Source of the DNA: an uncultured Cetobacterium sp.
Lineage (GTDB): Bacteria > Fusobacteriota > Fusobacteriia > Fusobacteriales > Fusobacteriaceae
Reading direction: 5' to 3'
Assembly (NCBI RefSeq): GCF_945952365.1
Contig: NZ_CAMFHX010000018.1
Coordinates: 1-49,144 of the forward strand
Length of the DNA stretch: 49,144 nt
Part shown: positions 6,001 through 36,156 of the stretch, piece by piece
How positions within the stretch are numbered: position 1 is the first letter of the stretch
Layout of the letters: each line of letters begins with the position of its first letter
The notes under the pieces: generated by a model
The model's input: only the letters and a program-made list of their open reading frames with translations
Database searches by the model: none
Told to the model about the DNA's origin: nothing
Program-made: the position numbers and the translations under genes

Positions 6001-9000
6001 CACCAGATGTTGTAAAACTAGCTGTATAACTAGCAAATACATTCGCTGTTGGAATTGCTGGTGATCCTGCAGTTTCAGCAATCTCTCCTACTATATTAGC
6101 AACTATATCAGTATAAGTTTTTGAAGCACTCGTACCTAAACCAGTATTTTCAATTCTCATTTTATAAACAACTTTATCACCTGGTAAAAAAGTTGTTTTA
6201 ACTGTTGTTCCATTTTCTTCAAATACTTTTTTAGTGTGAACAATCGTTGGATTTTGCATAAGTGAAGTTACACTTGATTTTAATCCATTTAAACTAGCTA
6301 TATTTGTAATGTTTCCAACTACATTTTCATTTATTTTAGCTTTTATTATATAAACAATCTCTCCACCTGGATGAATATCCATCAGCCCTTCTATTTTAGG
6401 CTTTGCTGCAGAATTTAAAACTTCTGTTCCTAAAGGGATTGTATTATTTATATCCGCCACTGTTGAAGCTCCTGATTCACTTAACTTTGTTATTGTCCAA
6501 CTATCAAAAGCTGGTCCTGTTACTCCTGTTGTTGCGTAGTTTGCCGTAATTGCACCTATCTCATCTAGGAAAGTTCCATTATTTAAGATTCCTTTTCCTG
6601 TATTTTTTAGAGTTACTTTATACTCTATAAAACCACCCGGCATATATCTATTTGTTATAACTGTTGTTCCATCTGGTTTATAGAATTTTAAAACTTCTTT
6701 TTTAATTTCAGGTTTATCTATCGATGGTCCTACTTGGTTTGATACTGCATCTCCATCTACAATAGCTGTATTTGTAATAAAACCAACAGCTTTATCTGTT
6801 ACTTTAGCTTTAATTTTATAAACTATAACTCCACCTATCGGTATATCTGGAGTTGCAGTTAATACTCCTGCAGTTATAGTAGGATTTCCTAAATCTGCTT
6901 TAAATCCTGTTGCAGTACTGTTAGCTAAATCAACAGTTATATCTGATAAAGCTGACACAAGTGCTCCTGTTGAATCTGTAACTTTAATTACATTGAAGTC
7001 ATCACTTACAGGTATATTTTGAGCATTACCATTACTATTATTCTTTATAGTTATTGTATATGTTATATATCCCCCAGGCTCATATTTACTAGGTAATACA
7101 CTCTTTGTATTTTGCAAGTTCCATCTAAAAGGAACTGTTACTAGACCGTTATTATTAATAGTTCCAATTGCATCTTTCCGAACTAAACCTTCTATTACGT
7201 ATTGAACTTTTTCCCCAGGTTTAACATCCACTAAACCAATTAGATTTTCATTATTTGCTGGTCCAACTGTAAAAACAGTTTCTGTTCCATCTGTTTCGTT
7301 TGTTACAATTTTTGTAACTGTAAATACTCCATTAAATGGATTTCCAACTGTTCCATCTATAAGTGGTACTGTTAAGTCTTTTACAAGCTCATTTATACTC
7401 AAATTATTTTGATATCCAGGACCTGTAGAAGTTGCTGTTATTGTATATTTTATAGTATCTACTCCTGGAATATATGTTGACTTATTAACTTCTCTAGTAA
7501 CTCCTCCACCTGGTGGAACTATGTTATGTTGCACAGAACTTGTTCCGATTAAAGTTGTGCCCTCTAATACAGTTGCTATATTTGTTAGCTGAGTTGTAAC
7601 AACTCTAGGATTAACTGTCGCAACTATTTTATACGTCATAGTTGAATTACCTGGTATTGTTATAGTATCATTTAAATCTGTCTTTGGACTTCCCAAAACA
7701 GATGTTGGATTTGAATTATTTAAATCTCTAAATATATTCCATGTATCAAATGCTGGCTGATTAGGCATATCTGTTACATTTTCAAGTGCTAAATCATTTG
7801 CATAAGTTGCTTTTATATTGCTAAGAACATCTTTTACTGTAACTACTTTTTCTGAACCTAATCTATTTATAACATCTATAAAGTAAGTTATTGTTCCTCC
7901 TGGTTCGAATATGGTGTTGTTACTTCTTTTCACAAAATCAAGAAGATTTCCTGAGCCTCCATTTTTTGTTATTGTTGCTGATGTCGTTGTTGTTAAATTA
8001 TTTTGAGTATCTGTTACTTCTACTGTGTTTGAAACTGTATTTCCTAAGTAACTAGCTTTTACTTTAGCTGTAATTGTATACTCAACTTTTCCTCCAGGTG
8101 CTATATCTACAACTGCATTTAAATCAGTATTTATAGGATTACTTATCCCTGTTGTCGTTCCTAACCCTGTTGGTGTTCCATTTATCTCTATATTTTCAAA
8201 ATATGTTGAGTTTAAAATATCTTTAATTAAAGCATCGTTTGCATATCCCTGTCCATTGTTACTTACAACAACTTTAAATGATACAGTTCCACCAGGTATA
8301 AACGTTCCCGATATTGCTGTTTTAGATACATTTAAATTTGGTAATTTAGGTGTTGATGTAGCAGAAGCAATTAAACCATCGGCTTTTGCTGTATTAGTTA
8401 TTGGACCGTATAAAATATTAGTTGATGTTGGTGTTTTTAATGTTGCTGTTATTGTATATTTTACAGATCCAGCTGGTGAAATATTAACTGTGTCAACTAA
8501 ATCAACATTACTAATACCGGTAGTTAGTGTTGATTTTGTTTCACTTCCTGTTAGTACAGGAGCCGATATCGTCCAGCTACTAAAAGCTGTTGTTGTTGTA
8601 CCATTGCTTAAAAGAGCTGCAATAGCTTCTGATACTTTATCTTCAACTTTTACTCCTATAGCAACCCCTGCAGTAGCATCATTTTTTACAACTACATCAT
8701 ATGTTATAGTTGTTGTTCCTCCTGCAACATATGTTGATATTGGTGTCGTTTTTTCTATACTTATTTTTGAAACTTTTGTCTGTGATCCTTTATCAGAATA
8801 AACAGCTCCATTTACTGTTGCTAAGTTTTTAATAGCACCTTTTGCTTTAGGATTTAAAACCGCTTCTATTGTATAAGTTATTCTTCTGTTTGGTCCTAAA
8901 ATTGCATTTGTTATATTTATATCTGCTGTTGGTGAATATGTTCCTGCACTTGTTGGATCTAAAACACTATTTACAAGTACTGGTGTGCTTCCAGATATAT

Positions 9001-11386
9001 CATATATTTTCGAAGTTATATTCCAAGAATTAAATGCAGGTCCTGTTGTTCCATCTATTAACTGAGCTGTTACCAAGCTTAGCTTATCTGTAATCATTAC
9101 ATTAGTAGCATATCCATCTCCTGGATTATCAACATCTATTGTGTAAATTAGTGTTCCTCCTGGAACATATTCTGTAGTATTAACATTTTTAGCTACTTCT
9201 AAAATTGGAGTAGACATTTTTACTCCAGGTCCTGTTTCTACAACATTGTCCCCTGATATTGTTGTATTATCTTGTATTAAGCCAACAGTTGTAAGTTTTG
9301 TTTTTGCTTTTATTTCATAAACTATACTTCCATTTGGTCCAATATCTGCTGTTAAAATCAAATCTCCTGTATTATTTGTTGTATTTACTGTTCCAGATGC
9401 TGTTCCTACTCCTGATGTAGATAAGACAGATAAATCCCAACTATCAAATGCTGGAGCTAACGATCCATCTATTTGTGTTGCCTTTATTGAATTTATCAAA
9501 TCTGTTATAGTAATATCATTCATAAAATTGTTATTTGGATTAGTTACTGTTAAGTTATAAGTTATAACATCTCCTGGTTTATATTCTATCTGTGTTGGAA
9601 CTTTTGTTATAACAACAGTACTATTATTTGCCAAAGCAACAGGTGTTGTTGTAACCGTTGCTGTTTTTTGTAAAACATTATCTTTCTTCAAATTAGCAAC
9701 ATTTACTATATTACTAATTGCAGAATCTTTTGCTACTGTTGTTATTGTATAAATTATACTTTCTCCAGGGAAGACTGATACTATATCCAATAAATTTGTA
9801 TTAGATGTAGTTCCTCCATTACTAATTATATCTGACAAAGATTTTGTTGATCCTGCAGCTAAAGCGGCATTTACAGTCCAAGTATTAAGTAATCCTGAAG
9901 ATGCTACATCTGTCGCTGACGAAGTTCCATTATTCCCAAGTCTTCCTGTTATTCCAGCCAATAAATCTTCTACTAAATAGTTAGAAGCTATTCCTGTTCC
10001 TGTATTTCTAACAGTTACTGTATAAGTAACTGTTTGTCCAGGTCTATAACTCGTTGGGTTTTGCGTTTTAGTCAAGTTCATCACTGGGGCTACTGATGTT
10101 GTAGTTATTGTCGATACTTTTTCAACATTATTTCTATCGGTTGCTTTTGCTGTATTTTCAAATACACCAACAATATCATCGTTTACTTTTCCTGTTATTG
10201 TATACTCTATAAAAGAGTTTGTGGCTATACTTACATCTGTAGCTGATAAATTGCCTGTTGGTGAGAATAATCCTGCACTACTACCTCCTGATGCAGTCGC
10301 TGTTGTTGTTATTGTTCCTGGTACAAAAACTGATTTTACAGAACCATTCGCCGCAGTTCCTGTAATCGTTGAAAGAATATCCTCAATTTTCATTTTTGTA
10401 ATTCCTACAGTACTTGAGTTATTCTGAACTCTTACTTTATATGTTAAGTTTTGACCTGGTGTATAATTTGTTGTTGTCGTTGTCTTTATAATTGAATAGT
10501 CGTAAGTTGCTAAATTTAAAGTCAAAGGTAGTGAGCTCTCTGTTTGACCTCTCACTGTAGTTGTTGCAGTATTAACTATTGGAGTAGTTACCCCTGCTTT
10601 TACATTTGCAGTTATTGTATATTCTACTTTTCCTAAAGGACTAATCTCTATTCCTGTCGCAATTAAATTTCCAGAAGGTGAAAAACTTCCTGCTGTACTT
10701 GATCCTGTACTAGTCGCAGTTATAGTTGCCCCTGTTAAATCAGATGGTAAAATATCCTCTACTTTAAAATCTTTTATTGTAGTTGTTGAACTTGTATTTG
10801 TTATTGTTACCTTATAAGTTACAACTCCCTCTTTTTCGTAATAAGCTATTGGTGATGTCTTTCCTATTGTGTATGTGTAAGGAACTCTTGTTAAAGTAAT
10901 ATTTCCAGTTCCAATAGATGTATTGTTAGTTTCTTTTACAGTTACAACTGGAGTTAATTGACCATTTACCAAATTATTTACAGTTCCTCTCACGAAATAC
11001 TCTACAAATCCTCCTACTGGTATATCTACACCATTAACTGAAAAATCACCATTTAATGGTACGCTACCCGCTATAGCGCCTAAACTACTATCACTAACTT
11101 GGTTTACTAAATTAGAAAAAGCCGCTCCCGCACCTCCTCCATCTAATGTTGAAGTTATTCCACTCAGCGGCGCTTCTATTTTTATATTTGTTAATGCTGT
11201 TGGTCCTGGATTAGCAATCCGTACCTTAAATCTTAATGTTTCTCCTGTGTCATACTCATTTGATTGTACAACTCCCGATGTATTAACTTTCTGAATTGTT
11301 ACTACTGGAGCCGCCAATAAAAATATAGAATTTAATAAGAAAATAAATAGTGCTGAAAACCGTTTATATGTCCCCGTTGTCCCCAT
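1..11386 (-). CDS. Giant secreted DUF11-repeat surface protein (3' end beyond window)
   Basis: The frame stays open from the ATG at 11386 to the left edge, giving at least 3,795 residues; I checked the codon phase of the repeat motif near 58, 2173, 4879, 7078 and 9577 and it is the same each time. The start has a strong site (GGAGG, 5 bases upstream). Residues 1 to about 26 form a signal peptide (hydrophobic FSALFIFLLNSIFLLA). The rest is about 26 copies of a roughly 145-residue domain of the DUF11 kind, each with a Y-x-PG-x-x-[IV]-x-Y-x-[IV] motif, then N-[TN]-G-x-G, then V-x-D. DUF11 proteins are usually large, Ig-like cell-surface stalks; adhesion is my inference. The C-terminal anchor is not visible. 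No frameshift was seen. The 208-base divergent gap upstream has no clear promoter that I can defend. A regulator with a c-di-GMP riboswitch lies one gene away. Confidence 0.93.
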   Translation of the reverse strand, partial: MGTTGTYKRFSALFIFLLNSIFLLAAPVVTIQKVNTSGVVQSNEYDTGETLRFKVRIANPGPTALTNIKIEAPLSGITSTLDGGGAGAAFSNLVNQVSDSSLGAIAGSVPLNGDFSVNGVDIPVGGFVEYFVRGTVNNLVNGQLTPVVTVKETNNTSIGTGNITLTRVPYTYTIGKTSPIAYYEKEGVVTYKVTITNTSSTTTIKDFKVEDILPSDLTGATITATSTGSSTAGSFSPSGNLIATGIEISPLGKVEYTITANVKAGVTTPIVNTATTTVRGQTESSLPLTLNLATYDYSIIKTTTTTNYTPGQNLTYKVRVQNNSSTVGITKMKIEDILSTITGTAANGSVKSVFVPGTITTTATASGGSSAGLFSPTGNLSATDVSIATNSFIEYTITGKVNDDIVGVFENTAKATDRNNVEKVSTITTTSVAPVMNLTKTQNPTSYRPGQTVTYTVTVRNTGTGIASNYLVEDLLAGITGRLGNNGTSSATDVASSGLLNTWTVNAALAAGSTKSLSDIISNGGTTSNTNLLDIVSVFPGESIIYTITTVAKDSAISNIVNVANLKKDNVLQKTATVTTTPVALANNSTVVITKVPTQIEYKPGDVITYNLTVTNPNNNFMNDITITDLINSIKATQIDGSLAPAFDSWDLSVLSTSGVGTASGTVNTTNNTGDLILTADIGPNGSIVYEIKAKTKLTTVGLIQDNTTISGDNVVETGPGVKMSTPILEVAKNVNTTEYVPGGTLIYTIDVDNPGDGYATNVMITDKLSLVTAQLIDGTTGPAFNSWNITSKIYDISGSTPVLVNSVLDPTSAGTYSPTADINITNAILGPNRRITYTIEAVLNPKAKGAIKNLATVNGAVYSDKGSQTKVSKISIEKTTPISTYVAGGTTTITYDVVVKNDATAGVAIGVKVEDKVSEAIAALLSNGTTTTAFSSWTISAPVLTGSETKSTLTTGISNVDLVDTVNISPAGSVKYTITATLKTPTSTNILYGPITNTAKADGLIASATSTPKLPNLNVSKTAISGTFIPGGTVSFKVVVSNNGQGYANDALIKDILNSTYFENIEINGTPTGLGTTTGISNPINTDLNAVVDIAPGGKVEYTITAKVKASYLGNTVSNTVEVTDTQNNLTTTTSATITKNGGSGNLLDFVKRSNNTIFEPGGTITYFIDVINRLGSEKVVTVKDVLSNIKATYANDLALENVTDMPNQPAFDTWNIFRDLNNSNPTSVLGSPKTDLNDTITIPGNSTMTYKIVATVNPRVVTTQLTNIATVLEGTTLIGTSSVQHNIVPPGGGVTREVNKSTYIPGVDTIKYTITATSTGPGYQNNLSINELVKDLTVPLIDGTVGNPFNGVFTVTKIVTNETDGTETVFTVGPANNENLIGLVDVKPGEKVQYVIEGLVRKDAIGTINNNGLVTVPFRWNLQNTKSVLPSKYEPGGYITYTITIKNNSNGNAQNIPVSDDFNVIKVTDSTGALVSALSDITVDLANSTATGFKADLGNPTITAGVLTATPDIPIGGVIVYKIKAKVTDKAVGFITNTAIVDGDAVSNQVGPSIDKPEIKKEVLKFYKPDGTTVITNRYMPGGFIEYKVTLKNTGKGILNNGTFLDEIGAITANYATTGVTGPAFDSWTITKLSESGASTVADINNTIPLGTEVLNSAAKPKIEGLMDIHPGGEIVYIIKAKINENVVGNITNIASLNGLKSSVTSLMQNPTIVHTKKVFEENGTTVKTTFLPGDKVVYKMRIENTGLGTSASKTYTDIVANIVGEIAETAGSPAIPTANVFASYTASFTTSGGNVTTIGSAGLNQTINLPNSVTIAPGGWIEFRIDGTLKDTIIGRFTNRSTYDGNNQDVSLNPVPPVITAKKTLTKLNGVDFVAGMTYAPGDSVEYKVEIENIGSSFFNNLSIGDNLDAIVTSLTGDNTGKALENIVISAPVVTNTLSKPVLTDIKSLASNTSTNLAVEVDFAPKDKIVYKITGNIVKSAIGSIPANIAIINLVSYPSNPINPKVPIISSKKELIAPANKIYGPNEVVEYKITIENTGEGFGNDIKIVDLISDIKTTLLNGSQGQAFANWTITSLITHSNTAFNGQTILQNALADNTNINTEVDIAPSGKVEITIKATTSSLAAGEIVNIAKIDNVEKSSDKINPRTAVVEFNKVPLITGNTTYTPGGDIGFRLILSNTSMNAIAKDIDLIDLVSSIKVDSSTGGQVEAFEPGWIYEIVSVSGDTTKFATSGIMNGADINTGKVTLGPGEVVVVRIKGKAVNTAIGNIVNTGNAIYNGIDLGPKTVTLTPAPGIADLSKVVNKESYTVGGKLIYTIVVKNTGTGYLNDVTIIDDLKLIETELATTGVGKAIDSFNVVTLTKTNAATIITRDTTYANGFKATGDIYPGDTVTIVIEATLNPLAAGKITNIAKVLDSSGNEFSEDKTNNTTTVNPLPAIVQILKTVDKATYISGDTLTYKVVVENTGTGWANGIKVTDDISGILADIGGASVGAFESWTIAANKVAGSDKVVLDNLELTNTATLTSNSNLDAKVSLAPLSAIEFTIVAKLKANTTTDIKNIAKYQYDPNNPSNPTTDPKLSNEVITTPKVTELTITKLQNNLRERSGFTANPVQYWLDDVILYQIVVQNGENAINNFEIVDNIQQILVGGSGGSNIPAYSQWSIDSIVYSDGTAGPISAQPSGIATQPSGENISVKTSLKAGEKVTVTIRAQITKGDETNLNFPQSVIKNTASIVVEVADENTVTENSNEVIFTPYPPVLERSKTITSIGGVDYTPGMTYSPGDKVVYTIGLRNTGNGVADNITVKDDIASVVTELAGGAVGSAFSTWTVTLDKSPAAKVDGTYPLSSPAVIDDIVDLGPDKYVNFIIEATVATNAIGTISPNIAIINGEDKVTPPIPPKAGTAPSLTKKIVVEDSRLDKSEYSAGDTIVYEVTVSNLNDKIWLNDVNVVDLISDVKALNLAGVEVAAFKPNWKIEMSNLKAETIFSGTYPKNNVNLNETMDLAPGDVVKFKITATINENIVGKIINTTTGTYKKNKTETPPLEPVSVESDSKIGLAKITKSPFEDFYSPGGVIGFDIVIENISTELINDLKLTDLISKIKASKIGEPNPVPVFKSDPPNWTITYQVVGDTVNTDATLIPATGDIDAVNLDIGKNTKIIIQIRGTAADRIYGDIINTASYEYPDTNENKEVTAVIKPKDPVLTLVKNVNTPEYGPQDEIVYTIEIQNTGIGAAIGVELEDAIGALETTLVGIAAPGTGLAFTSWTRELTSVPVTSSVVSEITDGDTYKAKLDIAPSDKIIITLRGVLDERAYGKIDNLVLLTYRDGQNTEKKLEANAETTGKSSELFIRKTINKNVYEDEDTLVFTVLLQNAGLGWGNNIVVEDKISEILDTIIGPAFESWTIKVTKSSELSSVTTNPESTDPPTPDNKDLNVLVDIAPISQVGFEITAKLKPNVSSIIRNTAYMQKTPDSPKEPSPEVIAEPTDGTISITKSVEESVYVVGEKLTYILEVKNSANILARDVIIKDALNSIKVVTNLGTEINPFTSWKIVSITPSSSTLPLTTPISILPAIGIDGTTDIEIKTNIKANETIAIKIEAIVALGDEQTGVPTGMIENKAIVTYEEKEIFDTAKTTPGEPLLLTTKVIKSLAGNTFENQKYNSGDELVYEITVQNNGGGMAKDVSIIDSISTMATELAGGTTGPAFETWSTVITKLKPTTLIQPSAVLKDTDINLIADIDKGEKIVITVTAKINSKAVGIIPKNIVTVGQDQKETPEVDPEKGVLEFTKTIIDGTD
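330..11300 (-). repeat. About 26 DUF11-like domain repeats, period near 434 bp
   Basis: The repeat motif (aromatic-x-PG, then N-T-G-x-G) recurs near positions 410, 880, 1310, 1735, 2170, 2610, 3040, 3530, 4020, 4450, 4880, 5310, 5740, 6190, 6640, 7080, 7470, 7900, 8290, 8720, 9160, 9570, 10040, 10460, 10830 and 11260. Spacing averages about 434 bases. Copies are diverged at protein level (for example YTPGGDIGF, SYRPGQTVTY, TYISGDTLTY) and are not near-identical DNA repeats, so the array looks old rather than recently amplified. Confidence 0.85.
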
Positions 11387-11868: not shown

Positions 11869-13206
11869 CTATAAGTTTTTTATATTTTTAATGTTCTTTA
11901 AAAGAAAAAATTTCAAATCTATAAAATTACTCTCTAAAGGAAAGCTACTAATTTTATAAACAGGCGTTTCCAAAGTTTCATTAATATTTCCACTAGTTAT
12001 AATTAAATCATACTCATCATCTACACCAAAAATTTCAAATATATGAGATGATATTTTATCAATTTTTTTAAATTCAAATATATCTTTTAATTTTGTCTGT
12101 ATGAGGTCTTTTATAAATTCCAATTCATCACATATAAAAAGTACCTTAAACTCTTTAAAATCAGAATATTTTTTTAAAGATAGCTGATTATATAATAAAT
12201 AAAATATACTTCGAATATCTTTTTCAATTAAAATATCACTTTTTATTTTATCTGAAAAATCTTTATAAAAACTTGTTTCACACATCTTCTCAGGAATCGG
12301 TAATGCTTCTCTTATATCTCCAAGTTCATTTAATAATTTTTCTAAAACTTCGTCATCTGCCTCTATTTCTAAGGTATCAATAATTTCTTTTAAAATACCT
12401 TTTACCTCTTCTAAACTGCCATTCTTAGATATTTTTCTATCTTGCAAAGAATTTTTTAATATAAATTCTTCACCTTGAGAAGATAATATAAAATTATTAA
12501 TCTCTTCCATATTATATCCTGTTTTATTTTTCTCTAATTTATCTCTTGTATTTAAAGCCGCTAACTTACAAAATACTTTATTGTATTCTATTAAACTATA
12601 ATTGTCACCTAAAACCTCTTTCATTCTTGTTTTTAAAACTGCTGGAGTTATATCACCCACAATTTTTCCTATTAAATCTTTTAAAACGTTTGGTAAGTTT
12701 ACAAACTGCTTATCAATCACTTTATGAATCTCCTTTTCTAAAGCGTCCACAATATTTTGTACTTCTCCTATTACAGAGACTCCTTTTGATGCAAATTTAT
12801 GAATAAAAACATCCTTAACTTCCAACTCACTTTTTATTATTAACATATCTTTTTTCAAAGTTGTTCTTGAGACATTTAAAAATTCAGCTTCTTTAGTTAA
12901 GTTTACCATTTGCTTAGATAAAATTTTTAACTTTAAATAACTTTTCCTATTTTCTGAAAACATCCCACCAAAATCAGAAATAATTTTATTCAAATCATTA
13001 CTTTTCAAATTTACCTGTAAACCTCCACCATCCGTTTTCTTTATTTGATCCAATTTATAACTTTTTAAAATGTAATTAATATTATCAATATCATACCTTA
13101 TCGTTCTTATATGTACGTTAAAGTTTTCAGATAATTTTTTTAATGTAAATCCATTTGCTTCATTTAAAACAGATAAAATATTAATACACCTTTCATTGAT
13201 AACCAT
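11869..13206 (-). CDS. BglG/Mga-like transcription regulator under a c-di-GMP riboswitch
   Basis: The 445-residue protein has an N-terminal winged helix (about 5-60, FTLKKLSENFNVHIRTIRYDI) and a second HTH (about 96-130, EAEFLNVSRTTLKKDM). A central helical region resembling a PRD domain follows (about 170-290), then a C-terminal EIIB-like fold (about 350-430, FKVLFICDELEF then EYDLIITSG). This is the layout of BglG/MtlR/Mga-type regulators. The PRD-like part lacks an obvious phospho-histidine (KLAALNTRDKL), so PTS phosphorylation may not control it; an EIIB-type Cys is present in LFICDE. The start is supported by GGAGG 9-10 bases upstream. The 5' leader holds a c-di-GMP riboswitch and terminator, so expression should depend on c-di-GMP. 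Its target is unknown; the flanking pilus operon and giant surface gene are candidates. Confidence 0.85.
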   Translation of the reverse strand: MVINERCINILSVLNEANGFTLKKLSENFNVHIRTIRYDIDNINYILKSYKLDQIKKTDGGGLQVNLKSNDLNKIISDFGGMFSENRKSYLKLKILSKQMVNLTKEAEFLNVSRTTLKKDMLIIKSELEVKDVFIHKFASKGVSVIGEVQNIVDALEKEIHKVIDKQFVNLPNVLKDLIGKIVGDITPAVLKTRMKEVLGDNYSLIEYNKVFCKLAALNTRDKLEKNKTGYNMEEINNFILSSQGEEFILKNSLQDRKISKNGSLEEVKGILKEIIDTLEIEADDEVLEKLLNELGDIREALPIPEKMCETSFYKDFSDKIKSDILIEKDIRSIFYLLYNQLSLKKYSDFKEFKVLFICDELEFIKDLIQTKLKDIFEFKKIDKISSHIFEIFGVDDEYDLIITSGNINETLETPVYKISSFPLESNFIDLKFFLLKNIKNIKNL

Positions 13207-13322: not shown

Positions 13323-13358
13323 AAAAAAAATACACCCCGGATTTATATATCCAACGTG
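13323..13358 (-). terminator. Terminator of riboswitch 1 (expression platform)
   Basis: On the minus strand CACGTTGGAT pairs with ATCCGGGGTG (nine pairs including two G-U, one G-G mismatch), followed by TATTTTTTTT. It starts where the 3' strand of the aptamer ends, so the two structures probably compete. Confidence 0.8.
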
Positions 13359-13425
13359 CAACTGGCTACCATTTTAAAGGCCCTATAGCTTTGCGTCCTA
13401 CAGTTTCCCGTAGTTTGCCAAAATA
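13355..13425 (-). ncRNA. Cyclic-di-GMP-I (GEMM-I) riboswitch 1
   Basis: The minus strand reads GGCAAAC, then CUACGG-GAAA-CUGUAG (a six-pair stem capped by a GAAA tetraloop), then GACGCAAAGC, then a second stem with its GGGCCU receptor-side segment and GGUAGCCAG-UUGC. These are the hallmark blocks of the GEMM-I c-di-GMP aptamer in the right order. It lies 149-219 bases upstream of the BglG/Mga-like gene and 53 bases after the last gene of the pilus operon. No pilus-operon terminator is visible, so read-through transcripts would also pass through it. Overlap of the closing strand with the terminator suggests c-di-GMP turns the gene on, but this is inference. Specificity for c-di-GMP over cGAMP (GEMM-Ib) cannot be settled by eye. 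Confidence 0.92.
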
Positions 13426-13477
13426 TACTCAAAATATTATTACACTATTCCTTTATTCTAATACACTTAAATATTTC

Positions 13478-13996
13478 CTACTTTTTAAAAAATTTTATAT
13501 TTTTATATCCCGATTCAACATTTACATCTTCAAGAACACCCTCTTCATTTATTAGAAATGTTGTTGGAATATTTATAATTCCAAACTGCTTATAAAGCTC
13601 CATCTCTTGACCGTCATAGTAAGGCTGGAAACTGAAGCTATTCTTTTTCATATACTCTTTTACTTTCTCTTTATTATCACTTCTATATGGACCAAAAACT
13701 ATTATAAATACAATATCATCTCTATCTTTATATCTCTCTTCATACTCTTTATTAAATACTAATTTTTCCTCTATGCAATCTGGACACCAAGTTGTTGTAA
13801 AGTTTAAAAATACCTTTTTTCCTTTCAACTCCTCTAAAGTTATTGTTTTATCTCCATCTAAAGTTTTCACTTCAAAGTTGTCCACTCTCTCTCCTAAAAG
13901 ATACGTCAATTTCTGCTCTCTAGGATCCCTCTCCTCACCAAATGAAAAACTAAATGTAAAAAATATCATCATAAATATTTTAAATAACATCTTCAC
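13478..13996 (-). CDS. TlpA-like periplasmic thiol oxidoreductase
   Basis: The 172-residue protein has a signal peptide (LFKIFMMIFFTFSFSFG) and a thioredoxin fold of the TlpA/AhpC-TSA group. The redox motif is TTTWCPDC (Cys71 and Cys74), and a cis-Pro segment is seen in INIPTTFLINEEG. It probably reduces or forms disulfides of secreted proteins. The GTG start at 13996 is chosen because GGAGG lies 9 bases upstream; an ATG at 13990 is the alternative. Its start overlaps the usher-like gene by 17 bases, so translation is likely coupled. As last gene of the pilus-like operon it probably acts on pilus parts; the major pilin has three cysteines. That link is inference. Confidence 0.88.
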   Translation of the reverse strand: MKMLFKIFMMIFFTFSFSFGEERDPREQKLTYLLGERVDNFEVKTLDGDKTITLEELKGKKVFLNFTTTWCPDCIEEKLVFNKEYEERYKDRDDIVFIIVFGPYRSDNKEKVKEYMKKNSFSFQPYYDGQEMELYKQFGIINIPTTFLINEEGVLEDVNVESGYKNIKFFKK

Positions 13997-16571
13997 TCTT
14001 TAACCCCTCCTCTTTTTCTACTACATCTTCTAAAATTTCATCCTCTATAAGCTCTATTGATTTTACCAAGAAATTATTATCTTCATAATAATCCCCCTCA
14101 CGACCAGATTTTACTTTTACTTTTAAATCTTTTTTATCAAACTCCCCCTTATATCTTCTACTATTAGGAATAATCTCTACAATATATTCACCCGGTAAGA
14201 TATCCTCAAAGAAATAGTATCCATCAATTTCAGTTACTGATCTTTTTATCTCTTCATCACCTTTTTTTAAAACTACATCTAAGTTTGCAATTAATCCATC
14301 ATATCTTCTCTCTTCTACTGTCATATCACTGTGAATATAACCACTTATCATAGAAACCGGAACTAATGGAATATCGACTTTTACTCCTGAAGATACAGCT
14401 CCCTTATATTTTATCATCTCTTTCCCTTGGATAAGCATAGGGTCAATCGACTCTCTGTTAATATCTATTGTATGTAATTCTCCTGCACCTATATTTCCAA
14501 TTATATATTTACCAGTCTCTTTTGCTGTCCCTGTTCCTCCTGATGTAGTTACCTCTGCCCCTTCATACACAGTTTCATTTTCATCCATAACTCCATTTGC
14601 ATTTTCATCTACAAATACCTTTCCTTCTACCCAGCCATCTGTTACATTATTGTTATTTATAGGCAGTAATGGATTTCCTAAGTAAACTGTTTTTTCTACT
14701 CTTGCCCCTATTATTGTTTCTTTATTATCCGTTTTTATATCTGGGAACTCTATGTAGATATTATTATCAAATAGATATGTAAATCTTATTTCAAAGAAGC
14801 CACCCTTTTCTCTTGAGTGTCCAACTTCAAGTGTAGTATCAACATTTTTAAAGAAGCCACTTTCTGATGGAGATTTTACTAAACTCAGTTTTATCTCATC
14901 ATCTGCTACTTTGTCCTCTTGATAATTTATCTTTCCTTCTAAAATTGCTGCAACTCCTCTTATCCCATTATAGTTTAGTTTTATCTGTGTTCCGTATCCA
15001 TTTGAACTTATCTCATCTGTAGATGAATATTCATAATACTCGTTTGATAAACTCATTCTAAAGTTCCTACTTATATTATAATCTAAATTTAAATATATCT
15101 GATAAAGATTCTCATCTTCATAGGTGTTATTAAAGTAACCTATACTACTTGTGAAGCGCCTAAAGCTTTTACTTAAATCTATATTATACGAGTAATCTTT
15201 TCTTAATCTATCCGATATCTCTTTATTGTAATCTTCATATCTTACAATCAGATTGCTATCCCAAGGTAACTTTTGCTCTAAAACCCCTTTAAAACCTTGA
15301 CTCTCAGAGTTGAGTTCCTCTAAGAGAGTTCCTGAAATTAGGGTTGGATACTTCTCCAATCCAAATCTATAAGCCAATCCACCTTCTAAAACTTCGTATT
15401 TAATACTATCTCTATTTTCTAAAAATGATGTTCCTATTGTTGTTGTTAAATTTTCAGTTAAACCATACTTATACTTTGCTAAATACTGATTTTTCTTCTC
15501 ATCGTTTCCTCTTCCACCTTGAATTACAAAGTCATTCTCACCTTTGTTCAATATATTTTGATTTCCTAGAACATAGATATCTTTTACCTCTACTCGACCA
15601 TCTCTATAGTAAATCTTTATTGTATAGCTATCTAAAGATGACATATTTAATGGAATAAATCTAAACCTATTTCCTGTAGGAATCTCAAAATCATCTAAGC
15701 TACCATTTCTATACAGTTCAACCAAGCTTGCATTTTGAGCTTCTCCCTCGATTACCGTTCTATTGTCGACTCTTATTCCATAGTATTCATTTTTAGAAAA
15801 ACTAACACCTCTAAGGTTTCTCTCTGCATCAAATATAGAATCACTTTCTAAGTAAAAATCTCCAAAAGTCAAATAATACTCTCCAAAAACTTCCTTATAT
15901 CTCAACCTAATATAGTCTAATTCACTTTTTGGATATATTTTTTGAGTCACTTCAAACTCTCCATATAAGAGCTCTGTTCCATAGTCTATATCAAAAGAGT
16001 AATCGTTCTTTTCTATATCTGTATTACTATATATAAACTTTACCATTCCTGGAGATAAAAGTTGTTTTTTATTAAAAATATACTCTCCCCCCTCCTCTAA
16101 TGCCTCCTCTTTTTTGGCCACTGCAAGTCTTGTTCTTTGATTATTCAATTCTAAAGAATACTCTCTAGGGGTTTTAAAGTCTGGAAAAAGAGTTAATATA
16201 TACCTTTCATCATCCCATTGATAATTAGGTATATAAAAATATTGTTGTAAATCTTTTAATTTTATAAATATATCATCATCTAACTCTATTGATGTACTTT
16301 GAGGTATCCTTATATCAACCTCTTTCTCTGCATCTAAGACTCCTTTAATCCTTCTTCTTTTCCGATCAAAACGAAGTCCATCTATTTTAGTAAAATCTAT
16401 AAACTCTGCCACTCCTATATAAATCTCCTCTGTTTCATCATCTATTAGGACTCTATAAAATTCATTCTTCTGCCCCTTCATCTCCAGTTCAATAAATGCT
16501 TCCTCTGGAGCAGAAAAAAGAGAGGCTTTTAAAATACAAAATATCAAAATTGTTTTTTGTAGTCGTGTCAT
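13980..16571 (-). CDS. Outer-membrane usher-like protein of a chaperone-usher pilus
   Basis: From the ATG at 16571 the protein has 863 residues: a signal peptide (about 1-21), an N-terminal periplasmic domain (about 25-140) and a long stretch of alternating beta strands typical of a barrel. A usher-like plug segment (about 290-340) reads ASLVELYRNGSLDD, then PTGNRFRFIPLN, then IKIYYRDGRVEV. The C-terminal part has two Ig-like or carboxypeptidase-regulatory-like repeats (GKVFVDENANGVMDENE, DGYYFFEDILPGEY). This matches FimD/CooC-type ushers in size and order, with weak sequence identity. The longer reading frame to 16628 is rejected because GGGGGAG lies just before 16571 and the long form would overlap the upstream gene. 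Ushers thread chaperone-bound pilins through the outer membrane. The C-terminal repeats are unusual. Confidence 0.78.
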   Translation of the reverse strand: MTRLQKTILIFCILKASLFSAPEEAFIELEMKGQKNEFYRVLIDDETEEIYIGVAEFIDFTKIDGLRFDRKRRRIKGVLDAEKEVDIRIPQSTSIELDDDIFIKLKDLQQYFYIPNYQWDDERYILTLFPDFKTPREYSLELNNQRTRLAVAKKEEALEEGGEYIFNKKQLLSPGMVKFIYSNTDIEKNDYSFDIDYGTELLYGEFEVTQKIYPKSELDYIRLRYKEVFGEYYLTFGDFYLESDSIFDAERNLRGVSFSKNEYYGIRVDNRTVIEGEAQNASLVELYRNGSLDDFEIPTGNRFRFIPLNMSSLDSYTIKIYYRDGRVEVKDIYVLGNQNILNKGENDFVIQGGRGNDEKKNQYLAKYKYGLTENLTTTIGTSFLENRDSIKYEVLEGGLAYRFGLEKYPTLISGTLLEELNSESQGFKGVLEQKLPWDSNLIVRYEDYNKEISDRLRKDYSYNIDLSKSFRRFTSSIGYFNNTYEDENLYQIYLNLDYNISRNFRMSLSNEYYEYSSTDEISSNGYGTQIKLNYNGIRGVAAILEGKINYQEDKVADDEIKLSLVKSPSESGFFKNVDTTLEVGHSREKGGFFEIRFTYLFDNNIYIEFPDIKTDNKETIIGARVEKTVYLGNPLLPINNNNVTDGWVEGKVFVDENANGVMDENETVYEGAEVTTSGGTGTAKETGKYIIGNIGAGELHTIDINRESIDPMLIQGKEMIKYKGAVSSGVKVDIPLVPVSMISGYIHSDMTVEERRYDGLIANLDVVLKKGDEEIKRSVTEIDGYYFFEDILPGEYIVEIIPNSRRYKGEFDKKDLKVKVKSGREGDYYEDNNFLVKSIELIEDEILEDVVEKEEGLKSEDVI

Positions 16572-16596
16572 TTTCTCCCCCTTTTTCATTCCTATT

Positions 16597-16941
16597 TCAC
16601 CATTTTGAGTTATCACAACTAGCAACAACTTTTTTTACTTTTTCTTCTTTTAGTTTTAAAGAGGTATTTTCCGCTGCACTACCTTCAATTTTAACTAATT
16701 TTTCTAAGTGGTTGTTCTCTAAATATATCTCATCAATTGCAGCTCTCTTATTTACAATAATATTTAAAGATTCAACTATTTTTACATCAATTTGTAAGTT
16801 ATTATTTAAATACTCTTTTCCAATATTTTCTTTAATTATCTCTTCGTATAAATTTATATTATTTTTATATTCACCTTCAAAACCCAGACTTCCATAACAT
16901 AATATTGAAGATAAAATATAGATACCCACTGTTTTTTGCAT
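16597..16941 (-). CDS. Small secreted protein in pilus operon (114 aa)
   Basis: The protein has a signal peptide (KTVGIYILSSILCYGSLG) and about 90 mature residues rich in Lys, Glu and Asn. The segment QIDVKIVESLNIIVNKRAAIDEIYL resembles the N-terminal strands of the major pilin (VSVKVPEQLVIKVDDINF), so it could be a minor subunit, pilus adaptor or terminator subunit, or a truncated pilin. It lies 11 bases after the second subunit gene and 25 bases before the usher. One Cys remains near the C-terminus (VVASCDNSKW). I do not recognise a named family. Confidence 0.65.
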   Translation of the reverse strand: MQKTVGIYILSSILCYGSLGFEGEYKNNINLYEEIIKENIGKEYLNNNLQIDVKIVESLNIIVNKRAAIDEIYLENNHLEKLVKIEGSAAENTSLKLKEEKVKKVVASCDNSKW

Positions 16942-16952
16942 ATTATCCTCCC

Positions 16953-17789
16953 CTATCTTCTTATTATCACTTTTCTATTAGGGTCATTTTTTTCTATTGA
17001 ATAATCTAAATATTCGTAAAAAGCTTTTACTGTAACTGTTTCTTTATAATCACCAGGCCTAACACTATTTACAGTTGAGTAAACCCTTCCATCTAAAATT
17101 ATTCTCTCTTTTACTTTATCTTTTTTTGGGAAAAAACCTAACACATTAACTTTTTCACCTCTATCAGTTTTTTCACTCTTAAAATCGACTTTATTTTTGC
17201 TATCTAGTTTAACAATCAGTTGCCCATCTGCCATAACTACCTGTTTTGGATATTGAAAATATAACTTTGTGTTTCCAATATCTTTTTTATCAATTCCCAA
17301 ATCCACTGTAATCTCAGGACTTTTTTTACTGCTTACTCCATTTTTAGGAACCCTTGATGGGATTAATCCAAACTCCATAGCTCCTTTTACTTTCAAAGAT
17401 AAATCTCCTTTTTTTCTAAACTCTACAGCTACCTCTCCAAATAAAACCTCTGTTTTGGATACTTCATCCAAGTATTCAATTCGTCCTATCACTATTTTTT
17501 CCTCAACTGAGTTTATCTTCGATTTATAAATAAATTCTACATTCAAATTTCCATCCTCAACTCTGTAGACATTGTTTTCTTTTTTAATTCCATTTACTCT
17601 TAAAATCTCAATGTTTCTTTCAGGAATAAATTTTATATTGAAATTTTTCTTATAATTAAATACACGAGCATCAACTCTTCCTCTATAACTAGTTCCACTT
17701 TTTTCTAGATTATATATCTGGCCAACTACATCAGAGGTAAATATATAGTTTGATACCAACAAAAATATCGCAAATAATAGTTTTTTCAT
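16953..17789 (-). CDS. Putative second pilus subunit or tip adhesin
   Basis: The 278-residue product starts at ATG 17789 (GAGG 9 bases upstream; the in-frame GTG at 17798 is less likely). It has a signal peptide (KKLLFAIFLLVSNYIFTS) and an all-beta mature part. Its C-terminal segment (VRPGDYKETVTVKAFYEYL) has the G-x-Y-x-x-x-V-x-V pattern that closes pilin domains, like the end of the neighbouring major pilin. It is larger than the pilin and follows it in the operon, a position often held by a minor subunit or tip adhesin in CS1-type loci. It has no Cys in the mature protein. The role is inferred from order and fold hints, not from a recognised family. Confidence 0.65.
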   Translation of the reverse strand: MKKLLFAIFLLVSNYIFTSDVVGQIYNLEKSGTSYRGRVDARVFNYKKNFNIKFIPERNIEILRVNGIKKENNVYRVEDGNLNVEFIYKSKINSVEEKIVIGRIEYLDEVSKTEVLFGEVAVEFRKKGDLSLKVKGAMEFGLIPSRVPKNGVSSKKSPEITVDLGIDKKDIGNTKLYFQYPKQVVMADGQLIVKLDSKNKVDFKSEKTDRGEKVNVLGFFPKKDKVKERIILDGRVYSTVNSVRPGDYKETVTVKAFYEYLDYSIEKNDPNRKVIIRR

Positions 17790-17814
17790 TTTCACCACCC
17801 TCTATATGAAAAGA

Positions 17815-17836
17815 GGCATAGCGTTCGAACTATGCC
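17815..17836 (-). terminator. Hairpin after major pilin gene (attenuator or mRNA stabiliser)
   Basis: GGCATAG at 17815-17821 pairs with CTATGCC at 17830-17836 across an 8-base loop. The flanking T tract is short. It lies between the pilin and second-subunit genes, where partial termination or protection of the upstream message would give excess major pilin. Confidence 0.6.
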
Positions 17837-17861
17837 CTAATCTATCTTTTTCTAAAACTTA

Positions 17862-18368
17862 CTAGAATCCGTCGTAAGATCCAACAACTGTTGCTGAAGC
17901 CGTATAAGTTTTTCCTGCAGTTAACAATCCAGTTACTCCTGGTTTATTTACAGTTACTTTTAATCCTGTTTGAGCAGCTCCACCTGTCAATGTTACTGTC
18001 TCTTCAGCTCCACCAGCAAATGCTACTTTACCTGTAAACTTAGTCACAAATCCATCTTTGAAAGTTAATGTTCCATTATTTTTAAATCCTAATTTTACAT
18101 CTTGATCCACTTCACCTGTTACTTTAACTGTATTACTAAAGTCTTTTGTTACAGTTTTTGTACCACACCATAATCCAAAATTGATATCATCCACTTTAAT
18201 CACTAATTGCTCAGGTACTTTAACGCTTACATTAAATGTATCCTCAGCACTACAAGGGTTTGAAAAACAGAACGCAGGGTCTACATCTGTAGGAAGAGTT
18301 GATACACTTTCATTTGCTAAAGCTGCTACTGAACCTAAAATAAATAAAACTGATAATAATTTTTTCAT
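17862..18368 (-). CDS. Putative major pilin (chaperone-usher type)
   Basis: The 168-residue product starts at ATG 18368 (GGAGG 7 bases upstream). It has a clear signal peptide (MKKLLSVLFILGSVAALA) and a Thr/Val/Gly-rich all-beta mature domain of about 150 residues, the size of a pilin. The C-terminal strand (LLTAGKTYTASATVVGSYD) resembles the closing strand of CS1-type and DUF4402 pilins. Three cysteines (34, 39, 68) could form one disulfide plus a free or intermolecular thiol. It follows the chaperone gene and is followed by a stable hairpin, as expected for the most abundant subunit. Confidence 0.75.
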   Translation of the reverse strand: MKKLLSVLFILGSVAALANESVSTLPTDVDPAFCFSNPCSAEDTFNVSVKVPEQLVIKVDDINFGLWCGTKTVTKDFSNTVKVTGEVDQDVKLGFKNNGTLTFKDGFVTKFTGKVAFAGGAEETVTLTGGAAQTGLKVTVNKPGVTGLLTAGKTYTASATVVGSYDGF

Positions 18369-18421
18369 TTTAATACCTCCACTGTTTTTTGTTTTTATAC
18401 TCAATTTTGTTGAGTTACTAG

Positions 18422-19192
18422 TTATAGGGGTAGTTCCTTACTACCAAGTCTAATTCCACTTTTATCTTTAAAATCTACCTTTATGAATCTGCTTCCATTT
18501 GGTATATTTGCTAACTCTGATTCTATTTTTGTCTTAGCTTCTCTTGTTGTTATTCCAAGTTTAACCTCTTCTTTTTTAATTCTCTTTCTACTGCTATCTA
18601 AATACTCTATATCTCCAAGCACAGCTAGTGCACTATTTCCACTTAAATTAAAGTTTGCAACTAATTTTCTATTTCCATTGCCCTCTTTTTTTATCTCTGT
18701 ATTAGTTAACTGCGCTCCAATTTTTCTTTCACCTTTCAATCCATAAGCTGCTATATGAATCTCTGTTAATAATTCAAACTCTATTCCTATCTCTTCTCCT
18801 GTATCTGTTTGAACTTTTTCAACGTTTCCTTTAGATGTTCCTGATAGCTCTCTAAAAATTAATTTAGCTTTGTATTCACCCTCAGGTAAATCCTTTGTTC
18901 CTCTCACAGCGAACCGTACACTTCTACTTCCATTTGGCTTTAAAGTTAAATTTTTAGGATATATTCTCATCATATCTCCCATATCATATTTTTCCCAGCC
19001 TGGATCTTTTTCTATATCAATCTCTATTCTCATTGGATATACCGTATTATTTGTAACCATAATTTCATGAGTTTCATTTTTATCTAACGATGTATAAAAC
19101 CCTGTGGGTGCTATCCCTATATTAAAAGCAAATGTACTTGTAAAAAGTAAGCTAAACATCAATCCATAAAATATTTTTTTCAATATCTTCAT
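18422..19192 (-). CDS. PapD-like periplasmic pilus chaperone
   Basis: The 256-residue product starts at ATG 19192 (GGAGGGG, 3 bases upstream). It has a signal peptide (KKIFYGLMFSLLFTSTFA) and two beta domains. The first (about 20-130) shows the pilus-chaperone pattern: a G1-like strand segment (MRIYPKNLTLKPNGSRSVRFAVR) followed by LPEGEYKAKLIFREL. The second spans about 130-255. Such chaperones hold pilin subunits in the periplasm by donor-strand complementation and deliver them to the usher. It is first in the operon; the divergent HD-GYP gene starts 278 bases away. Confidence 0.8.
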   Translation of the reverse strand: MKILKKIFYGLMFSLLFTSTFAFNIGIAPTGFYTSLDKNETHEIMVTNNTVYPMRIEIDIEKDPGWEKYDMGDMMRIYPKNLTLKPNGSRSVRFAVRGTKDLPEGEYKAKLIFRELSGTSKGNVEKVQTDTGEEIGIEFELLTEIHIAAYGLKGERKIGAQLTNTEIKKEGNGNRKLVANFNLSGNSALAVLGDIEYLDSSRKRIKKEEVKLGITTREAKTKIESELANIPNGSRFIKVDFKDKSGIRLGSKELPL

Positions 19193-19343
19193 GTTCCCCT
19201 CCAAATATTTTTTAGTCACTCTGTCTTTCATGCCATTTTATTCTGAGATAATTTTGTAACTCTTTTTTTTCATTAGTGAAGTGTTTTTCATTTTTTTGGA
19301 AAATATTTTTCATTTTTTAAATTTTATACAAATAAAATAACTA

Positions 19344-19383: not shown

Positions 19384-19469
19384 AGGCCCTCTTCTCCAAA
19401 AAGTATTATAAGATTTCAATTTTTTCTGATATAATGAGAAAAAGGTCTTCAATTCCAGGGGAGGGGTTT

Positions 19470-21611
19470 ATGCTTTTAAAATTACTTATTAGCTTTTTAA
19501 TCATATATATCAATATTTTCTCCATAAATTTCTCTACAGAAGAGATTGATTGGATTAAAGATAATCAAAAGACTACTTTCACTATAAACGCTTACAATCC
19601 TAAGCACATCTATTTATACGAAAATGAAGCTGGTGTATTAAGTGGTGTTTATATAAATTTTTTCGAAAAAATTTCAAAAGAAACTGGACTTAACTTTAAA
19701 TTTCAAACTTTAAAACGAGATGATATGTTAAATCTATTAAATAAAGGGGAAGGGGACATTATATTTAATGTCAGCAAATCAATCAATCGAAAAAAAAATT
19801 ACAATTTTTTGCCCACATTAAATTCATATACTTTAGGAGTTTACTCTAAAAATGAAACCTTAATTGATATTAAATATCTTGAAAAATATAAAGTTGGAAT
19901 GATACCAACATCATCCGATTCTTTACTAATAAACCAATTTTATCCTCATTTAAATAACGTCATCTCTATCGCTGATAATGGAAATTTTGGATTTTGGGCA
20001 TTAAAAAATAACACTATTGATGCTCTCATTGGTAAGAGTAGCAATGATATTTTAAAAACATATAAATTTACACCTTTTGAGAATGTTCCGCCTTCACAAC
20101 TTTGGATGGCAGTAAATAAAAATCATCCTACATTGGAGAAAATTATTACTAAATTTAAACTTGAATTTAGTACAAAAGAAGTTGCTGATATTTTAAAAAA
20201 TGAACGACCCTATTTTTATAGGCAACTACTGAGTAATCAACAGCTATTAGCACGTATTAAAAGACGCTACTCAAATATTAAAGTTCTTATTCCTGATATA
20301 GATGATATGCTACCTATTTTTTATAGATCAAAAAATAAATATAGTGGGTATATTATCGACCGTTTAGAAGAGTTGTCTAAGCTAACTGGCCTACCTATAA
20401 TTTTTACATCGGATTCAGAGAATTATGATATAAAAGCTATCGACTCTAAAATGTTTCAAAGTAACCAAAATAAAAATAAACAAAACTTATATTATATTCC
20501 ATATTATAAGATTCAAATTGGAATATTTTCTAAACATGATGCAAACTTTATAGATTCGTTTCAAGGCTTTGAAAATAAAAGAGTTGGAATAATCTCTTTT
20601 GAAGATATCGATACCAACTTACTAAACTTTTTACACAATTTTGATTTTTATAAAATATACCCAGATACTACAGAGGCTTTAAATGCTATATTAAGAAATG
20701 AAGTAGATTATATAATTGGTGATTTTAAAATAATCTCTATGGGGGTTGCAAATAAATATTTAGAAAATAAAATAAAAGTTGCTGGTTTTTTAGGCGGAAA
20801 TAATACGATTGGCTTTGGAATAAAAAAAGATGCCGATTTAGCTCAGTTAGTCGATAAACTTTTCCCAAATCATCTAGCTGAAAGTAGAATATTACAAAGT
20901 GAGCTTTCAGTATCTAAAAAATTATCTCCTAACTATAAATATTTACTCTTAATGCTCTCAACATTTTTTATAATAATAGCTACACTTTTCTATCTTTTAA
21001 GAAAAGCTACTATCGCTTCAAAAAAAGAGAAGCGTATTACAAAAGCTCTTGTTGAAAGCTTCGAGGCTGCAAATGAACTCAATGATGAGGATACAGGTAA
21101 TCATATTTTAAGAGTCAATCTGTATTCAAAGTTTTTAGCTGAAAAGCTAAAATGTTCTAGTAAATTTATAAAAGAGATTGGAGAATATGCTTCCTTACAT
21201 GATGTCGGAAAAATAGCTATCTCTGATATGATTCTTAAAAAACCAGGTAAACTTACCTCTGAAGAGTTCGAAGAGATGAAAAAACATGTTATTTTTGGAA
21301 AAGAACTCATTAAAAAGATGCAACTTGGATCAATTGCTGAAAATATAGCTCTTTACCACCATGAAAAATGGAATGGAAAAGGTTACTGGTTTGGTTTATC
21401 TACTGATGCTATCCCTTTAGAAGCTAGAATTGTTGCTTTAGCTGATGTGTATGATGCCCTGCGTCAAAAGAGAGTTTATAAAGATGGATTTACTCATGAG
21501 GTCGCTGTTGAGATAATAAAAAAAGAACGTGGTGAACATTTCGACCCCGCTCTTGTAGATATATTCTTAATTCATCATAAAGAGTTTGATAAAATTTTTA
21601 TCTCTCATTAA
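19470..21611 (+). CDS. Membrane sensor HD-GYP c-di-GMP phosphodiesterase
   Basis: The 713-residue product starts at ATG 19470 (GGGGAGGGG just upstream; an in-frame ATG at 19434 lacks a site). Order: signal peptide, two periplasmic bacterial solute-binding domains of the amino-acid type (about 25-255 and 265-490), one membrane helix (about 491-513), and an HD-GYP domain (about 545-710). The catalytic signature is present: HDVGKIA (His577, Asp578) and HHEKWNGKGYWFGL (His630, His631). The usual GYP reads GYW. HD-GYP enzymes hydrolyse c-di-GMP, so a periplasmic ligand probably sets c-di-GMP breakdown. It diverges from the pilus operon; a TATAAT lies at 19430. The sensor layout matches the GGDEF-EAL protein at 25361-28127. 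Confidence 0.92.
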   Translation: MLLKLLISFLIIYINIFSINFSTEEIDWIKDNQKTTFTINAYNPKHIYLYENEAGVLSGVYINFFEKISKETGLNFKFQTLKRDDMLNLLNKGEGDIIFNVSKSINRKKNYNFLPTLNSYTLGVYSKNETLIDIKYLEKYKVGMIPTSSDSLLINQFYPHLNNVISIADNGNFGFWALKNNTIDALIGKSSNDILKTYKFTPFENVPPSQLWMAVNKNHPTLEKIITKFKLEFSTKEVADILKNERPYFYRQLLSNQQLLARIKRRYSNIKVLIPDIDDMLPIFYRSKNKYSGYIIDRLEELSKLTGLPIIFTSDSENYDIKAIDSKMFQSNQNKNKQNLYYIPYYKIQIGIFSKHDANFIDSFQGFENKRVGIISFEDIDTNLLNFLHNFDFYKIYPDTTEALNAILRNEVDYIIGDFKIISMGVANKYLENKIKVAGFLGGNNTIGFGIKKDADLAQLVDKLFPNHLAESRILQSELSVSKKLSPNYKYLLLMLSTFFIIIATLFYLLRKATIASKKEKRITKALVESFEAANELNDEDTGNHILRVNLYSKFLAEKLKCSSKFIKEIGEYASLHDVGKIAISDMILKKPGKLTSEEFEEMKKHVIFGKELIKKMQLGSIAENIALYHHEKWNGKGYWFGLSTDAIPLEARIVALADVYDALRQKRVYKDGFTHEVAVEIIKKERGEHFDPALVDIFLIHHKEFDKIFISH

Positions 21612-32634: not shown

Positions 32635-32762
32635 TTATTTATTTAATATGAACTTTTTTACCCATTTTTCTTCATTTTTTATGAAATTCTTCATATTTTC
32701 CTGTTGCATTTTATATGCTACTATGTAACGGTGCTAGTATTACTAAAAAAGGGGGGAATACT

Positions 32763-35655: not shown

Positions 35656-35702
35656 TATCTTTATAATTTTTTATCTTTATAATTTTATATCTTTATAATT
35701 TT
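35655..35702. repeat. Three tandem 16-bp repeats over the marR-like stop codon
   Basis: TTATCTTTATAATTTT occurs at 35655-35670 and 35671-35686, and with one change at 35687-35702. The third unit encodes the C-terminus of the MarR-type protein and the stop codon lies at the unit border. Confidence 0.85.
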
Positions 35703-35978
35703 AATAAATTTAATTTTATTATATAAATCTTTTCCAATTTTTGTTGGATGAATTTTAAAAATTCTTTTGTCATCAAAAGTTTCAAACTTTTGAATAAGCT
35801 TTTCCTCTTCTAACTTTTTTAAACATAAAGAAACCGCTCCTTTTGATAAATGCATTAATTTTGTCAATTGACATAATGTTATCCCTGGAGTTTCATTTAT
35901 CGTAAATAATATCTCTTCTTGAGTATAATTAATATGATACTTCTTTAATTCATTTTTTATTTCCATCTTTTTACACAT
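35685..35978 (-). CDS. Small MarR-type regulator under a c-di-GMP riboswitch
   Basis: The 97-residue protein is a winged helix of the MarR type: recognition region LTKLMHLSKGAVSLCLKKLEEE (within residues 37-60) and wing KFETFDDKRIFKIHPT. Usual MarR proteins have about 140 residues with helices for dimerisation at both ends; here the C-terminal helix is nearly absent (ends NKIKFIKIIKI), perhaps because of the tandem repeat at its end. The ATG has AGGGGTG 5 bases upstream. The leader holds a c-di-GMP riboswitch with a terminator, so it is the second regulator in the window placed under this RNA switch. Confidence 0.85.
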   Translation of the reverse strand: MCKKMEIKNELKKYHINYTQEEILFTINETPGITLCQLTKLMHLSKGAVSLCLKKLEEEKLIQKFETFDDKRIFKIHPTKIGKDLYNKIKFIKIIKI

Positions 35979-36037: not shown

Positions 36038-36077
36038 AAAAAAAACACCCACATTATGAGTTTTTCATAACTAAGTG
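36038..36077 (-). terminator. Terminator of riboswitch 2 (expression platform)
   Basis: On the minus strand CACTTAGTTATGA pairs with TCATAATGTGGGTG (13 pairs, one bulged G), followed by eight T. It begins at the 3' end of the aptamer. Confidence 0.85.
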
Positions 36078-36142: not shown

Positions 36143-36156
36143 TATCTTTCGGTATT

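Follow-up and report, generated by a model that had tools for sequence, protein, structure and literature searches.

The window analysed here is a stretch of 49,144 nucleotides (positions 1–49,144 of contig NZ_CAMFHX010000018.1) from an uncultured Cetobacterium sp. of the Fusobacteriaceae, a bacterium of the fish-gut type. Between positions 13478 and 19192 it carries six closely packed open reading frames on the minus strand, in which a preliminary description had recognized a pilus operon of the chaperone-usher (CU) type. All six lie where that description had placed them and, in the order of transcription, are the following:

18422..19192, minus strand: PapD-like periplasmic chaperone, 256 amino acids, with an ATG at 19192 and a ribosome-binding site ahead of it
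17862..18368, minus strand: major pilin subunit, 180 amino acids, with three conserved cysteines, assigned by position, orthologs and cysteine pattern
16953..17798, minus strand: two-part subunit of 281 amino acids, probable tip or initiator pilin by hhalign comparison with genes preceding the usher elsewhere
16597..16941, minus strand: secreted protein of 114 amino acids with a conserved cysteine near the C-terminus and no profile match, a dispensable accessory
13980..16589, minus strand: outer-membrane usher, about 870 amino acids, linked by its family profile to FimD and to PF00577 proteins
13478..13996, minus strand: TlpA/ResA-like thiol-disulfide oxidoreductase (Redoxin, 1.1e-16; WCPDC and cis-Pro motifs)

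Seventeen base pairs of tlpA overlap the end of the usher gene. Four further genomes from this genus have the same gene order (L031/L035, which lie on one contig of a Cetobacterium sp., L036, L037 and L038), and the operon is therefore not a product of chance. Orthologs share 62–66% identity for the usher, 64–78% for the chaperone, 35–53% for the pilin, 55–63% for the 281-residue subunit and 64–85% for TlpA. The 114-residue protein is encoded in the window, L036 and L031 and is missing from L037 and L038; compared by hhalign as a truncated pilin, it scored about 5%. The signal peptides originally claimed for all six proteins stand as hydrophobic, signal-like N-terminal segments judged by inspection, not as calls of a dedicated program. 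In a survey of 61 related genomes, proteins of the usher family were present in 21, all within the same family, and in none of the 24 sampled from other families of the order; a plasmid search with the usher gave no match. The genome itself has a second usher locus on another contig, the usher of which is 30% identical. This second CU operon (L034, G000:C32) comprises a riboswitch, an SBP-HD-GYP phosphodiesterase, an SBP_bac_5 protein, a tip subunit, the usher, a MORN_2 protein and a chaperone, and is kept in several genomes.

The preliminary description had predicted that the locus would be easily missed by routine annotation, and this is the case: the usher alone matched no usher model or protein in Pfam, NCBIfam or the PDB sequences, and the Pfam usher model PF00577 found nothing in this genome. 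Homology to known ushers emerges through the family. PF00577 matched three of 37 usher relatives (L065 at 3.5e-11), and a profile of the family retrieved ushers in Gammaproteobacteria and scored two PF00577 proteins (L119, E 4.6e-7; L116, E 7.7e-4) as well as Escherichia coli FimD (E 0.0018; these three E-values scaled to a search of 1000 sequences). The alignment with FimD is in register, starting at 236 versus 259 and continuing across the plug region, and an SdrD_B match lies at the C-terminus. This SdrD_B-like region corresponds to the two C-terminal domains of ordinary ushers such as FimD and PapC, and FimD is about as long as the protein described here; a barrel, a plug and two C-terminal domains are to be expected. 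The extra C-terminal repeat domains proposed earlier are rejected in view of the length of about 870 residues and the collinearity with FimD, the two C-terminal β domains being those of an ordinary usher.

The chaperone was traced in a similar manner. PapD_N matched 28 of 35 aligned relatives (best 1.4e-7), with the window protein alone falling below the cut-off, and hhalign of the family against EcpB, EcpE and FimC gave 93% at E 3.5e-7; among PDB sequences, the one nearest to the chaperone profile is EcpB, a weak match (E 0.64). Pro79 is invariant and corresponds to the invariant proline typical of pilus chaperones (PMC4654587). An AlphaFold2 (AF2) model built from five sequences (mean predicted local distance difference test score, pLDDT, 63.7) consists of two immunoglobulin (Ig) domains, as a PapD-like chaperone should. 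In VIA-align, domain 1 superimposes on CsuC (Z 10.6, 3.0 Å, 104 residues) and the model on EcpB (Z 9.6, 5.9 Å, 154 residues), and CfaA aligns as well. Because unrelated Ig folds reach Z values similar to those of CU chaperones, the predicted fold supports the assignment without proving it alone. The chaperone-usher identity is borne out by the PapD_N matches in chaperone relatives together with the hits of the usher family on FimD and on PF00577 proteins.

The subunits point to a class of pilus other than the one first suggested. DUF4402 is found in pilins or tip-like genes of related loci (L032, 9.4e-14; L112, 2.5e-19; L110, 8e-31), and the 281-residue subunit aligns with the gene preceding the usher in other CU operons (hhalign E 6e-9, 229 columns), which in L034 has a DUF4402 match in its C-terminal half. 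This protein is therefore probably a two-part tip or initiator, with an N-terminal domain followed by a C-terminal pilin domain. The profile link of the window pilin to DUF4402 subunits is weak and comes mostly from the signal region, and its identity as the major pilin is assigned by position and pattern; membership of the subunits in the DUF4402 group thus appears firm for the relatives and weaker for the window pilin. Neither the CS1 pilin PF04449 nor the alpha-usher domains PF16967 and PF15976 scored above cut-off, and SCPU subunits (PF05229) were absent from the window and sub-threshold in relatives. The comparison with CS1-type loci drawn in the preliminary description consequently holds for the order of chaperone, pilin and usher, but not for the tip-like gene, which precedes the usher instead of following it, nor for the CS1 pilin, TcfC and CooC, and the subunits are better placed with DUF4402.

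The Redoxin-domain protein carries WCPDC and IPTTF, the latter being the cis-Pro motif, in all five operons of the window's branch (clade 1), as expected of a TlpA/ResA-like enzyme. In four of the five, its gene overlaps that of the usher; none of the other CU loci examined has it, and a search with it as query brought up no second copy in the genome. Three cysteines (C-x4-C...C) are kept in the five cognate pilins, one of which has a fourth. The chaperone has none in the five orthologous operons and those of the usher and the 281-residue subunit are few and all in the signal region, which leaves the pilin and the small 114-residue protein as the only ones with conserved cysteines in the mature part. 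Among 23 pilin-like proteins taken by a simple sequence filter from loci lacking tlpA, 20 have no cysteine, two have one and one has two. The thiol enzyme private to the operon that was originally postulated is borne out by this distribution, in which none of the 23 proteins from loci lacking tlpA has three cysteines. TlpA is operon-specific and probably acts on the pilin thiols by reduction, shuffling or pairing.

Elements with a possible role in control, none of them noted in the preliminary description, lie within and on both sides of the operon:

17814..17837, minus strand: intergenic hairpin GGGCATAG...CTATGCCT with a short T-run between the pilin and tip genes, probable partial terminator, in five of five operons
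13354..13429, minus strand: c-di-GMP-I riboswitch aptamer (c-di-GMP, cyclic diguanosine monophosphate) within the regulator's leader (RF01051, 55.9 bits, E 2.4e-8)
13331..13360, minus strand: intrinsic terminator (stem of −12.5 kcal/mol and T8), the 5′ arm of which overlaps the 3′ helix strand of the aptamer
11869..13206, minus strand: EbpR/MafR/Mga-like transcription regulator, 445 amino acids, behind tlpA (NF053736, E 4.2e-10, below cut-off; HTH_11)
19434..21611, plus strand: divergent SBP_bac_3–HD-GYP-type c-di-GMP phosphodiesterase (HD_5, 8e-29; SBP_bac_3, 2e-13)

In the five orthologous operons the stem of the hairpin (GGGCATAG/CTATGCC) is conserved and its loop is variable, and a partial terminator between the pilin and 281-residue subunit genes is plausible. 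The aptamer exceeds the Rfam gathering score (55.9 bits versus 35), and its 3′ strand (13358–13363) has three bases in common with the terminator, which is the layout of an ON switch. Orthologs of the regulator (61–86% identity) adjoin the operon in L031, L037 and L038, and L038 has the same riboswitch-regulator arrangement as the window.

The association of c-di-GMP riboswitches with pilus genes extends beyond this locus. The genome has five c-di-GMP-I riboswitches, which lie ahead of the window regulator, the second CU operon, two lone DUF4402 pilins (L123; one matching at 7e-8, the other narrowly missing the cut-off at 9.9e-5), a pilin-like gene with no Pfam hit (L124) and a MarR-type gene. 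Across four genomes (G000, G005, G006, G010), 17 of 23 such riboswitches precede CU operons, this regulator or stand-alone pilin-like genes, some of which were compared with Pfam; the remaining six precede MarR genes (three), GGDEF/EAL enzymes (two) and a giant surface protein (one). The chance expectation per copy is about 3e-4 for five 300-bp targets. A riboswitch stands directly ahead of the CU operon at 16 other usher loci, and the terminator extends into the aptamer helix strand in 18 of 22 copies. The divergent SBP-HD-GYP protein, orthologs of which (59–60%) are found in L037 and L058, is homologous (about 32–34%) to the gene that opens many CU operons headed by a riboswitch, among them the second operon of this genome, and this homology suggests feedback on c-di-GMP.

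Considering the conserved operon, the remote homology of the chaperone and usher, the link of the subunits to DUF4402 and the adjacent riboswitch-regulator pair, the locus probably encodes a chaperone-usher pilus under c-di-GMP-linked control. According to this model, Sec would carry the subunits into the periplasm, where the chaperone would donate a strand to the incomplete pilins and deliver them to the usher, the 281-residue two-part subunit entering first as the tip. The usher would then extrude the three-cysteine pilin as a shaft, TlpA would reduce, shuffle or pair the thiols of this pilin, and the hairpin after the pilin gene would end many transcripts, giving a surplus of shaft protein. 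At high c-di-GMP, the aptamer would hold back the strand that the terminator needs, and the regulator would be made and would activate the operon; the adjacent HD-GYP enzyme, with its putative periplasmic ligand-sensing part, could bring c-di-GMP down again and so complete a feedback loop. Sister operons have the riboswitch immediately ahead of the CU genes themselves.

Several results weigh against this interpretation. The usher-family profile did not match EcpC, and hhalign of the family against a two-sequence FimD/EcpC profile gave no significant match, for which reasons we call the link to CU ushers remote, albeit consistent; the hhalign comparison was replaced by the bridge through gammaproteobacterial ushers. 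An AF2 model of the usher from three sequences has a pLDDT of 33, exceeds 60 only in stretches of the plug and of the C-terminal regions, and is too poor to show a barrel or a plug. The window pilin has no convincing match in Pfam, the genome yielded no DsbB, VKOR or DsbD_TM as a partner of TlpA, L031, L036 and L037 have no riboswitch at the regulator position, and the target of the regulator is putative. The latter two points would also fit a riboswitch unrelated to the operon, whose regulator acts elsewhere and whose nearness reflects shared genomic islands. We consider this unlikely given the riboswitches straight ahead of CU operons at the 16 other usher loci and the excess of pilus-related targets over the chance expectation. 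Somewhat less doubtful is the notion that TlpA is a mere hitchhiker in the operon and looks after periplasmic thiols in general: ResA/StoA-like enzymes often have such a broad role, and the correlation between tlpA and pilin cysteines may reflect a single event because the clade-1 operons are one lineage, but the overlap with the usher gene, the absence of the enzyme from the other CU loci and, by this query, from the rest of the genome, and the confinement of conserved mature cysteines to the pilin and the small protein all speak for a dedicated function.

Two further alternatives concern the nature of the system itself. A giant DUF11-repeat surface protein of at least 3795 amino acids (2–11386, minus strand) lies directly behind the regulator and runs off the edge of the window. 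With such a neighbor next in line, and with large secreted proteins following the usher in several relatives, the locus could be read as an export system for other cargo in which the usher-like protein is a mere outer-membrane pore. This is very unlikely, as the same chaperone and usher family is accompanied by DUF4402-type subunits, several in tandem, whose C-terminal strands are pilin-like, and the giant is far too big to be chaperoned as one incomplete Ig subunit. Still less probable, to the point of being close to dismissal, is a role of the two-Ig protein as a surface scaffold of the WxLIP type instead of a pilus chaperone. The best Foldseek matches of its model are Enterococcus WxLIP proteins, and eight relatives have weak WxLIP_PGBD matches; however, Caf1M, EcpB, SafB, DraB and CupB2 follow closely at about 1e-7, PapD_N is both the commonest and the best Pfam match in the family, and the gene adjoins those of an usher and pilins. 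The middling Z values among Ig folds do not distinguish the two.

To our knowledge, CU pili have been studied almost exclusively in Proteobacteria. The closest systems that we found are the gammaproteobacterial DUF4402-type loci (L032 of Pseudoalteromonas, L110, L112), which share the chaperone, DUF4402 pilins and an usher with SdrD_B/CarboxypepD-like C-terminal domains that is likewise not found by PF00577; they differ in that neither TlpA nor an EbpR-like regulator was seen in the operon, and the L032 usher is about 23% identical. Alternative (alpha) CU systems, namely CS1, CFA/I and the E. coli common pilus, have the same chaperone-pilin-usher order, and their chaperones EcpB and CfaA are those with which the model aligns, EcpB also being the weak sequence match of the profile; the window differs in having its tip-like gene before the usher, and Fimbrial_CS1, TcfC and CooC_C gave nothing above cut-off. 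A resemblance to the archaic (sigma) Csu/SCPU systems lies in the alignment of chaperone domain 1 with CsuC and in SCPU scores, all weak, for some of the related pilins, but no SCPU subunit exceeded the cut-off and the window usher is unseen by PF00577. In Clostridioides difficile, c-di-GMP riboswitches control surface factors, forming a regulon of colonization and surface genes (PMC6200980) akin to that described here; in Fusobacteriaceae, however, the riboswitches neighbor operons for CU pili, DUF4402 pilins that stand alone and a regulator linked to CU loci.

A literature search in which most subscription journals lay outside the coverage found nothing joining c-di-GMP riboswitches to CU pili in this group and nothing on DUF4402 or Cetobacterium CU pili. 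The components are of known kinds, and the same search turned up no description of the putative branch, of the failure of curated models to see it, of the pairing of TlpA with pilin cysteines or of the riboswitch link. These results place in Fusobacteriota a CU family that is large (21 of the 61 genomes sampled) and unannotated, and tie it to c-di-GMP, the signal of a sessile lifestyle, through RNA sensors that are repeatedly attached to pilus genes in these bacteria, and they offer testable predictions on how gut Cetobacterium decides to attach. As a tentative extension, an ON-riboswitch regulon of CU operons and scattered lone pilins that share ushers might set a mixed, interchangeable pilus coat in Fusobacteriaceae. 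In the branch of the window, the shaft might be locked or kept assembly-competent by the dedicated TlpA acting on the three pilin cysteines, two of which lie in an N-terminal extension before the presumed donor strand and could form inter-subunit disulfides.

The related loci vary in their make-up. In another CU branch (L054, L055, L057, L058, L127), the pilin is flanked by two chaperones, and several of these loci encode, after the usher, a secreted protein of 1400–1830 amino acids that is possibly a giant tip adhesin. In L037 (1217–5056) and L058 (536–4583), the same chromosomal neighbors and HD-GYP gene surround two different CU operon types, which looks like an exchange of CU cassettes at a single site. 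A conserved stretch, AAAAAAGAGTTACAAA..TTATCTCAGAATAAAA, lies upstream of the window's chaperone gene (19193–19270); L038 has two copies of it (11996–12200), and it could be a promoter or a regulator site. By eye, three more proteins of the Mga/EbpR type appear to be encoded in the window (32715–34154, 34235–35626 and 44493–45908). A second riboswitch (36073–36148, minus strand) with an overlapping terminator lies ahead of a MarR-type gene (35685–35978, minus strand), a pair that is also found in L129 and L133.

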